A stretch of DNA of 64,000 bases from Lobosporangium transversale (taxonomy: Eukaryota; Mortierellomycota; Mortierellomycetes; Mortierellales; Mortierellaceae): contig NW_019029015.1 of NCBI RefSeq assembly GCF_002105155.1, positions 248,001-312,000 of the forward strand. Direction: 5' to 3'. The translations under genes and the position numbers were made by a program. Under the pieces are notes generated by a model. It saw only the letters and a program-made list of their open reading frames with translations. It was not told the origin of the DNA and ran no database searches. Below, piece by piece: positions 6,313 to 44,056 of this stretch (positions are counted from its first letter, which is position 1; every line of letters begins with the position of its first letter).

Positions 6313-6343
<31 letters not shown>
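6313..6343. repeat. Poly(A) tract, 31 bases
   Basis: Uninterrupted A run directly after the decayed coding sequence. It could be a retroposition-like tail or one of the general homopolymer tracts of this genome. Confidence 0.9.
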
Positions 6344-25362: not shown

Positions 25363-25399
<37 letters not shown>

Positions 25400-39807: not shown

Positions 39808-40144
39808 ACCGTGTGGAAGGGGATTGAATTAAATATGGTAATGGCAGCAAAGTCGAAGAGAAGGTTGAGATAAAGATATTAAGAATCTGGCTCTATTTAT
39901 GACCGCGGGAAATGAAGTGTATCGAGACTCAAGAAAAAGGCGAGTGAGAGTATGACTGAGCGTGGGCGCTTTTCAGGTTATGACTTGGGCGAAGAGAAAG
40001 AAAAAGCTTGTATCTCCAGACAAATTTCTTTGAGTAGAACAAGATGTCCACGGGCGGTCACGCTGTTGCCCCTCGTGACGTGCATAGCATCCAAAGATCA
40101 TGTCGCTCCTCATTCTCATTTTCTGTCTCAACAGAGACAATGGA

Positions 40145-41139
40145 ATGGATGATGTCCCTGCATACGAACTTGTGTTCCTGAATGAACTCCACGACAGGCT
40201 AAAACTACTCAACCCATGGTACACTACCAGTGCTGGCCTCTTCAGGGTCCTTGGCCGGTAAAATCGATATTTGTAAACCCATTTAAGGCTTTTATTCCAC
40301 TCCTTCATCCCCAAGTCATGTTCTAACCTTTATCATTCTTCCTCTCTAAAATGTTGATTAGTTTATCCACATATGATTTAGATAATCAAGTCGTTATAGT
40401 TGAGTCTTGCTTCCATCATCAGCATACTCCACTGAGAACAACTGAAGCAGCAATGATAACAACGACAGTAGAGGCCAATGGAAACAGACCGAAAACGCCC
40501 TTCGGACTCGGATCAAGCACTGAGGACCCAGTTCAGCCAATCAAAAGTTGCACGATTGACCTGACCTTAGGTGACGAAGAAGAAGGGAAAGAGGGAGGTG
40601 ACGGAAGCGAAGATTCAGAGTCAACGGCGGTAAATAATAGTGGATACATCGATCTGACGTGTACCACAGATGACGAATCTTGTAATGGGGATGAGAACGA
40701 CAGTAACAGCGATGCACTGACGTCATTTATTGCCGTGTCTCAAGTATGTGAGAACAAAGAGAAGGGGGCCGGGAAGCGGAAGCTACTGTCATCATCTGTA
40801 TTTCCTTCGTTAACAGGATCACCGCCTCAGCCAAGAAGACGCTGCTCTGAACAACAGAAAATGAGAGCACCTAAGGTTGCTCTTTGGGTCAGCACAGAGT
40901 TGTTATCACCAGGGCAATGGCGATTTGAGCCGGGAGTGATCTTTCAATTTATTGGAGAGATTGAGTACAGGTCAGGGCATTGGGTCTTGGTTGCAAGGGC
41001 CTGTCGTAATATGGAAGGGCTAGATTTGTACACCTACAGAGAGTCTATCCTCTTGACTAGGAAGCTCATGCAACGAATGGCGCGTAGAGGAAGTGACTCT
41101 GATCATGAGTATCAATGCAGATATGCAGCTCATCATTAG
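40145..41139 (+). CDS. TEN1: TEN1-like CST telomere-capping subunit with SIM-bearing insertion
   Basis: Two exons (40145-40257 and 40362-41139) give 296 residues; human TEN1 has about 120. The start MDDVPAYELVFLNELHDRL, then GLFRVLGR joined across the intron to LSTYDLDNQVVIVES, corresponds to the first strands of the TEN1 OB fold. The last third (KVALWVSTELL, PGVIFQFIGEIEY, ARACRNMEGLDLYTYRESIL) matches its end, including the helix after the E/VEGMxL motif. Between them, residues about 55-207 are acidic, Ser/Asn-rich and probably disordered, with two typical SUMO-interaction motifs: TIDLT followed by GDEEEG (102-106) and YIDLT followed by an acidic patch (133-137). TEN1 works with STN1 at telomeres and lagging-strand fill-in. 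The homology is inferred from the motif pattern and needs a profile search. Head-to-head with GID4, 338 bp apart. Confidence 0.7.

Positions 41140-41206: not shown

Positions 41207-41243
<37 letters not shown>
41207..41243. repeat. Poly(A) tract, 37 bases, downstream of TEN1
   Basis: The longest uninterrupted homopolymer in the window. It follows AATAAA-like signals after the TEN1 stop codon. Further A runs lie at about 41330-41346 and 41594-41615. Confidence 0.9.
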
Positions 41244-41650: not shown

Positions 41651-44056
41651 ATGGAGCATTGCTTTTGCACTTTTCCTTACCCGTTCTGTCTTATTGATCC
41701 CACCATACACAAAATGGATAACTGCTGTTTCCCGGATTTTCTCGATTTCAGTGAAATGGCATGCCCCAAACGCGAGTTCACCATCCCCGAAGATATCGAA
41801 TTTGACCAATTTCTTAATGCTAGCTTACCATGCTCAAGCCTGCCAAACAGCCTTTCCTCATCCCGTTGCGCTTCAGTTGACTTTGATACTTCTCCGGAAC
41901 CTTCAGTAGAATCGACCTCGTTTAGAACAAGTGTGGATTTAGGATTTGAACAAACTACGGAGAGAACCCCACCTTCTGTGCCAGGGGGGGATGTCCTTGC
42001 AGGTACAACTGCCATGACTGCATTCGATAGCCTGTTACAAAGTACTCTGTTCATAGAAGGAGGATACCAAATGGGTAGTACAGTCATAAAAGACAGTGGG
42101 GCTCTAGAACATCCTGTTACAAGCGCGTCAATTCCAGGCACGGATTTTGCCCCAAGTCAACTTCAATATTCCAATAATGCTCCAATTCCTGTATTAACCT
42201 CTGATTGTAAACATGGGCAACAATTTTTACTCTCTACTATGAAATCGTCCAAGTTCATACAAGACCACGAGGCGCCCGCTAATCTTGCTCATGTCTCGCT
42301 TTCCAGCGTTCTGGATAACAGTGGCCCATTCGCAGCTACCAGTTTGCCCTGTGTTACAGCACCTTGTCATTGGCTTGGAGCAGCGCCACTTCTCGCGCCG
42401 TCGTCGGACATACTTGCATTCTCTGATTGTATCGAGCAGCAGGCGTTATCGACCACACAGCTTCCCCTTCTGCTTCCACCACTACTTATGCCTTCACTTG
42501 TGACATCATCATCACCATTATCACCATCATCACCATCATCACAGGACATCCTCAGCGGACGAGCGCAGTCTATCTTTATCAATCCGTTCGAACCGTACAC
42601 CTTGAGTGATAAAACTCTGCTGGACGACCTTAAGGCCAACGCCCCATATACTGAGAACCAGATGAATCCAGAGACAACAGCTATTGCAATGGCCAACAGT
42701 ACTCTAAAACATCTGTCGACCCAAAATGACGCTTTCAGCTATAATAGTGGTATACAAGGACTATTCACAGACTTTTCCTATTCAAACATTCCTGCTAAGC
42801 ATAATGGCCTCGAATCCGAACTAAGGTTTGTTCAAGAGTTCTTAACACCACCCCTTACCATGACCTCGTGGACGAGTTCAGATGAACCTGCTGCACAAGC
42901 TTTGGTGATACCAGAAACTGAGGCATCGGTACTAATGTTATATAGGCCAAATGAATTGAACCAAAATGGCCCATGTAATATTGGTCATGTTGGGTATATG
43001 TCACCACAAAGGATTAATAAGAATAGGACGAGCCTTAAGACGCGTAGTAATATTAATAGTAGGAAGCCATTTTCAATGAAAAAGATCACTGATTGCGCAC
43101 ATTACCGACCACGAAACGCTTTCTTCATGTTCCGCGGATTTGTATCTCGCCTGCAGCAATACAGCGGTCTCCATTACAATCTTCATAGACAGCAAAAGAA
43201 AGGCAACCATGATGATGATAGTCATAGCAATAACAAGAATGGTAGTGATGTCGCGCTAATGTCGTCCCCATGCTCGCCCTTGGCTTCGTCATCGCCCCCG
43301 ACCTTTTCACTGCCACCGCAATCATTATCACCATCGTCCCCATCCTTGCCATTGCCAGCGCCTCCTCTTCAGTCTTTAGCTTCCGCAATACTCGATCCAG
43401 GAGAGAATATTCTCCCTCCTACAGCAGATACTTCATCAGACTTTAAAGAGACAGAGAGTGTTGGATGTGGTATGACTCAAACAAAGGTGTCCATCAGTTG
43501 TGGTAAGATTTGGTCCAGTGAATGCTTTGAGGCCTGTGGTCCGGGAGGATGTCCCAACTGCCGTATGCGATCCCTGTTCGGCCAAGCATCCTCATTTTTG
43601 AAGTTACGGCAAGCCGAAATAGAGCGACAGATCGAGTTTTCAGAGTCTATCACCACTGCTACTTTGCTTGAGAAAAACATCCCATTATTATCACCATCAT
43701 CATTACCATCTACTACAAAGATGATGAACACGTCTATATCAGATAACGATAGTGAAAGCCAAAAGAATACGTATGTAGCGTTAACAGCGGGTCATTTAGC
43801 AATTATGTCGCTCGAGAACTCTTTCAATTGGGAAGAGTTTACACAATTGTACTACGAGAGTGATCTATTCAAATGGCATCGCAACCATTATTTGGGCACG
43901 AATGGAGTGTTAGATCTTGAGGCAATGAAACATGTTTGGATGGAGAATGAGCTGGCATATGAAAAAGCCTTTGTAGAAGGCGCCAGAAAACGAATTTTAC
44001 AAGAAGGTGGATCCAAAAAATTAGGTCAAAGGATCCGCAGGACAAAATTAAAGTAA
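41651..44056 (+). CDS. HMG-box protein with a split, cysteine-containing box
   Basis: A single open frame of 801 codons. The HMG-box start, YRPRNAFFMFRGFVSRL, is at residues 485-501 (fungal MAT/SRY-type boxes have RPxNAFxxFR). The next expected piece, helix 2 (the I-x-K-xx-G-K-x-W pattern), appears only at residues 612-623 as KVSISCGKIWSS. About 105 Ser/Pro/His-rich residues lie between. A cysteine cluster (C625-X3-C-X4-C-X2-C637) follows, then FLKLRQAEIERQIEFSE, which could be helix 3. So a sequence-specific DNA-binding box appears to carry two insertions. The C-terminal 120 residues are well ordered in composition (SLENSFNWEEFTQLYYESDL). Residues 1-480 are low-complexity. An internal ATG at 41714 is an alternative start. 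The target genes and role are unknown. Confidence 0.7.
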   Translation: MEHCFCTFPYPFCLIDPTIHKMDNCCFPDFLDFSEMACPKREFTIPEDIEFDQFLNASLPCSSLPNSLSSSRCASVDFDTSPEPSVESTSFRTSVDLGFEQTTERTPPSVPGGDVLAGTTAMTAFDSLLQSTLFIEGGYQMGSTVIKDSGALEHPVTSASIPGTDFAPSQLQYSNNAPIPVLTSDCKHGQQFLLSTMKSSKFIQDHEAPANLAHVSLSSVLDNSGPFAATSLPCVTAPCHWLGAAPLLAPSSDILAFSDCIEQQALSTTQLPLLLPPLLMPSLVTSSSPLSPSSPSSQDILSGRAQSIFINPFEPYTLSDKTLLDDLKANAPYTENQMNPETTAIAMANSTLKHLSTQNDAFSYNSGIQGLFTDFSYSNIPAKHNGLESELRFVQEFLTPPLTMTSWTSSDEPAAQALVIPETEASVLMLYRPNELNQNGPCNIGHVGYMSPQRINKNRTSLKTRSNINSRKPFSMKKITDCAHYRPRNAFFMFRGFVSRLQQYSGLHYNLHRQQKKGNHDDDSHSNNKNGSDVALMSSPCSPLASSSPPTFSLPPQSLSPSSPSLPLPAPPLQSLASAILDPGENILPPTADTSSDFKETESVGCGMTQTKVSISCGKIWSSECFEACGPGGCPNCRMRSLFGQASSFLKLRQAEIERQIEFSESITTATLLEKNIPLLSPSSLPSTTKMMNTSISDNDSESQKNTYVALTAGHLAIMSLENSFNWEEFTQLYYESDLFKWHRNHYLGTNGVLDLEAMKHVWMENELAYEKAFVEGARKRILQEGGSKKLGQRIRRTKLK

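Follow-up and report, generated by a model that had tools for sequence, protein, structure and literature searches.

What could have interrupted the OB fold of a telomere protein with a long disordered loop, and why would that loop keep two short motifs of a kind known to bind SUMO? The question is raised by a gene in a 64,000-nucleotide stretch of the genome of Lobosporangium transversale, a member of the soil-fungus family Mortierellaceae in Mortierellomycota (contig NW_019029015.1, positions 248,001 to 312,000, hereafter the window). Its 296-residue product is TEN1, a subunit of the CTC1-STN1-TEN1 (CST) complex, as judged by profile, predicted fold and relatives. We argue below that the loop is probably an arm carrying tandem SUMO-interaction motifs (SIMs), by which TEN1 would bring CST to SUMOylated telomere proteins.

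A TEN1 gene with an interrupted OB fold

The gene lies on the forward strand and comprises 40145-40257 and 40362-41139, separated by its sole intron. From end to end the product shows no difference from BCR41DRAFT_359368, a hypothetical protein of L. transversale (P0001 in the homologue set described below); its splice is thus that of the public gene model. The features are as follows, with the evidence in brackets.

40145 to 40257, forward strand: TEN1 exon 1, N-terminal helix and beginning of OB strand 1 (frame and splice, model, identity to P0001)
40258 to 40361, forward strand: TEN1 intron of 104 nucleotides, GTAAAA...GATTAG (identity to P0001; the LGR junction is also where fragments P0032 and P0033 stop)
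40362 to 41139, forward strand: TEN1 exon 2, with the stop codon at 41137-41139 (frame and splice, identity to P0001)
40423 to 40848, forward strand: disordered insert, residues 59-200, in the loop between OB strands 2 and 3 (pLDDT; absent in four TEN1s from outside the family)
40555 to 40566, forward strand: first SIM-like motif, with its IDLT core at residues 103-106 and LGDEEE after it (sequence, shuffling, conservation)
40648 to 40659, forward strand: second SIM-like motif, with its IDLT core at residues 134-137 and CTTDDES after it (sequence, shuffling, conservation)
40867 to 41136, forward strand: residues 207-296, which make up the second half of the OB fold with strands 3-5 and the C-terminal helix (PF15490 stretch 209-275; model)

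An in-frame ATG upstream, at 40100, would lengthen the product to 311 residues and leave the splice unchanged; the homologues begin at a site matching 40145. The public gene model, together with conservation at the protein level, speaks for retention of the insert in the product.

The Pfam profile PF15490 (Ten1_2, curated cut-off 27 bits) matches the full protein in two stretches (2.5e-13, 50.2 bits), and scores higher when the two ends are joined without the insert (4.5e-15, 55.8 bits). It has a single match in the 42.7 Mb assembly of L. transversale, as expected of a single-copy TEN1. In the AlphaFold model of the protein alone, the OB fold with its C-terminal helix is closest to solved TEN1 structures, the six best PDB entries all being TEN1 chains (4JOI, 8D0B, 6W6W, 8SOJ, 3KF6 and 3K0X). 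The second half of the fold is modelled as strands at 211-215, 231-241 and 244-254 and a helix at 260-295, and the insert occupies the loop between strands 2 and 3, with block means of pLDDT of 37-51 over residues 61-200, flanked by confident strands. A preliminary description of the locus, made from its sequence, had proposed that the two ends of the protein match TEN1 and that the OB fold is interrupted; both proposals are borne out, and the length of 296 residues and the motif positions that it gave (102-106 and 133-137) are correct. It had also described the middle as about 150 acidic, low-complexity residues. A disordered insert of 142 residues is indeed present, but its acidity is only moderate (25 D/E, for 13 K/R, of which 7 are K).

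Conservation of the motifs in a divergent insert

With the residue that precedes them, the two motifs read TIDLT (102-106) and YIDLT (133-137). Each lies in a disordered region and has a hydrophobic [VI]DLT core with acidic residues after it, as in SIMs of the IDLT/PIAS type. None of 5000 shuffles of the L. transversale insert contained two such motifs, and these two are the only occurrences of [VI]DLT in the stop-to-stop frames of at least 150 residues in the window (10,767 residues, many of the frames not being genes).

Homologues were collected by a single-protein search and a core-alignment search, which gave 33 proteins including the window's own; a third search, seeded with a Basidiobolus protein, added three more short proteins. 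Basidiobolus excepted, the named homologues belong to eight genera, all placed under Mortierellaceae in the taxonomy. The insert is kept in this family: 26 of the 33 proteins, the window's included, have a complete insert, which is 98 to 186 residues long as delimited for the comparison and nearly unconserved outside the motifs. The strict motif [VI]DLT occurs twice in 15 of them, once in 8 and not at all in 3; where there are two, they stand 23-55 residues apart. The three inserts devoid of it form one group, and have at the corresponding places VELIVLSDDEE, and IDLV with acidic residues after it. In two further proteins, P0024 and P0027, a single IDLT is kept, and acidic stretches of the IEI type lie upstream.

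At 60% identity the 26 inserts fall into 19 clusters, between which pairwise identity has a median of 26%. Together the clusters contain 30 [VI]DLT motifs, where 0.096 are expected from shuffled inserts and the maximum in 20,000 shuffles was 3. By this measure the IDLT-plus-acidic motifs of TEN1 inserts exceed chance, and the earlier claim that two such motifs are present holds. In a 14-row alignment, each of the eight motif columns has its commonest residue in 64-100% of the rows; the mean share is 27% in the other columns of the insert, and 75-78% in the core. We consider this pattern strong evidence that selection keeps the motifs while the remaining arm drifts, and such retention amid a changing loop suggests that TEN1 itself may read SUMO signals at chromosome ends.

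Variation in motif and gene number was also seen. Three Mortierella alpina proteins (P0012, P0021 and P0022) have a third acidic motif, of PIDLEDE type, past the two IDLT motifs, and a pair of distinct TEN1-like proteins, P0009 and P0019, both with a SIM-bearing insert, comes from Modicella reniformis and may reflect a duplication.

Origin of the insert and other telomere genes

In four TEN1s outside Mortierellaceae, namely that of Basidiobolus ranarum (129 residues) and three placed outside by their sequence (119-132 residues), strand 2 runs to strand 3 without an insert. PF15490 is listed for all four, and two of the four were re-checked directly against the profile. Because these outside TEN1s lack the insert and solved TEN1 chains are short (99-121 residues), the insert is most simply seen as a gain within or before Mortierellaceae; among the few TEN1s sampled, it is seen in one fungal family only. 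Mucoromycotina and Glomeromycotina are the nearest outgroups, and the searches for TEN1 homologues returned no named match from either.

Components with which such an arm might work are encoded in the same genome. A SUMO exon was found, its best PDB match being a SUMO2 construct (E 6.7e-27). The STN1 gene lies outside the window (L033:1180-2448, genome contig C2), and its four assembled exons encode 318 residues. The stretch 2-81 aligns with STN1 sequences in the PDB, which supply all five top matches (1.4e-12 to 1.3e-8); Pfam recognises in the protein only an OB fold, below threshold. Its C-terminal end is PIVLDESEDEFEKSKDA, with a SIM-like start, PIVLDESEDEF. As far as sequence can tell, both TEN1 and STN1 may thus carry SIM-like motifs.

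This bears on the proposal, made in the preliminary description, that the lineage may have built a SUMO sensor into TEN1 rather than depend on the SUMO modification of a partner. The contrast is not right, because a SIM reads a SUMOylated partner and still needs one, and because STN1, with its SIM-like PIVLDESEDE, may share the task. If anything moved from STN1 to TEN1, it may rather be the SUMO reader, and even this picture is incomplete given the SIM-like end of STN1.

Long homopolymers of A or T were also seen. A run of 37 A begins 68 bases past the TEN1 stop codon, and the window as a whole has 44 A/T runs of at least 12 nucleotides (23 of A and 21 of T; for example 41207-41243, 25365-25397 and 6313-6343) and no G/C run of at least 8. 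Poly-K and poly-F stretches in frames of other loci suggest that A/T runs are common in the L. transversale genome. Downstream, at 41717-44056 on the forward strand, a low-complexity frame of 779 residues includes two stretches that, by eye, look like an HMG box split in two by an insert; neither the whole frame nor the joined halves gave an HMG match in Pfam.

TEN1 as a putative SUMO reader

How could the arm act? The intact OB fold would close across a disordered arm leaving the hairpin between strands 2 and 3. On SUMO, every [VI]DLT core would dock as an additional strand; the tail that follows the core, acidic and rich in Ser/Thr, would touch the basic face of SUMO and might be tuned by phosphorylation. 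The arm of STN1-bound TEN1 would then recruit CST to SUMOylated proteins of the telomere or of replication, or hold it there, which would stop telomerase and let C-strand fill-in begin. That the arm binds SUMO, which partner it meets and how it affects telomerase are inferences, as is the placing of some SUMO reading on TEN1 in Mortierellaceae.

Several observations weigh against this reading. SIM-like motifs are short and many are nonfunctional. The strict motif is single in 8 of the 26 inserts and missing from 3, for which the SIM-like label was chosen post hoc; the first motif of P0010 has one acidic residue among the next ten, and the residue preceding IDLT in L. transversale is T or Y, not V as in VIDLT. 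The SIM-like tail of STN1 from the same genome means that the TEN1 arm may be auxiliary. Profiles of POT1, TPP1 and CTC1 had no match in the genome and none in control genomes either, and are hence uninformative.

Other explanations of the motifs have to be considered. That the insert is a meaningless low-complexity expansion whose motifs were inherited by chance would suit its variable length and lack of conservation outside the motifs, but 30 motifs in 19 clusters, and motif columns conserved between clusters that share a median identity of only 26%, make this very improbable. Alternatively, the motifs might be SIMs through which the SUMO machinery acts on TEN1 as its target or client, by SIM-assisted SUMOylation or control by SUMO-targeted ubiquitin ligases, and TEN1 would then not be a reader that recruits CST. 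Self-modification assisted by SIMs is a known role of such motifs, and the insert offers seven lysines in 142 residues; the conservation of the motifs across relatives suits reading at least equally, and we rate this alternative as unlikely. Acidic disordered arms of replication proteins have many binding partners, and the [VI]DLT-acidic stretches could bind a ligand other than SUMO, such as a basic patch of STN1, polymerase alpha-primase or a replication factor. However, their core and acidic tail fit the SIM type of PIAS and RNF4, as described in the available part of PMC3901395, and the exchange for VELIVLSDDEE or IDLV-acidic, from one SIM-like form to another, is not one that a different ligand would clearly tolerate. 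We find such a ligand similarly unlikely, and retain the tandem-SIM arm as the probable explanation.

A bolder version, which we put forward tentatively and with some doubt, is that Mortierellomycota rebuilt the SUMO reader of CST as a TEN1 tandem-SIM arm that senses SUMO chains or several SUMOs and sets the switch-off of telomerase. If true, the arm would have arisen independently of the fission yeast Stn1 SIM, in a subunit seen elsewhere as structural. SUMO-binding sites in the TEN1 of a further, early-branching fungal lineage would mean that the link between SUMO and CST persists while the reading subunit changes, and that TEN1 has a regulatory role. The literature searched, mostly open-access, held nothing linking Mortierella with telomere/CST or SIM, nor Lobosporangium with telomere, and no title about a SIM in TEN1 among the listed papers joining TEN1 with SUMO; in the available part of PMC7952879, found with TEN1, Mucoromycota and telomere, Ten1 appears in the reference list only.

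Known systems offer partial parallels, given here from the available parts of the papers cited. SUMO control of Stn1-Ten1 is described in two yeasts, via Cdc13, Tpz1 and Stn1 (PMC4197044). Budding yeast Cdc13 and Stn1 interact with SUMO in two-hybrid assays, where Ten1 gives weak signals with Elg1 (PMC10396338). The N-terminal part of RNF4 contains several SIMs, and the PIAS/RNF4 type, a DLT core with an acidic C-terminal flank (PMC3901395), is like the L. transversale motifs, which differ in lying inside the loop of an OB domain. The human and S. pombe TEN1 chains of the six PDB entries have no insert, unlike L. transversale TEN1. There is also a likeness to the S. pombe switch at Tpz1-K242, by which SUMO on a telomere protein promotes the arrival of CST and limits telomerase (PMC6686008, PMC4197044): the SUMO-CST link known there is the one proposed here. 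In fission yeast two-hybrid assays Stn1 binds SUMO, whereas Ten1 alone shows no significant binding but strengthens that of Stn1 (PMC4197044). The S. pombe SIM lies in Stn1 (ILAL, 226-229, with a putative second, IIYL, 195-198; PMC6686008), whereas L. transversale has tandem SIM-like motifs in the TEN1 loop, besides the C-terminal PIVLDESEDE of its STN1.
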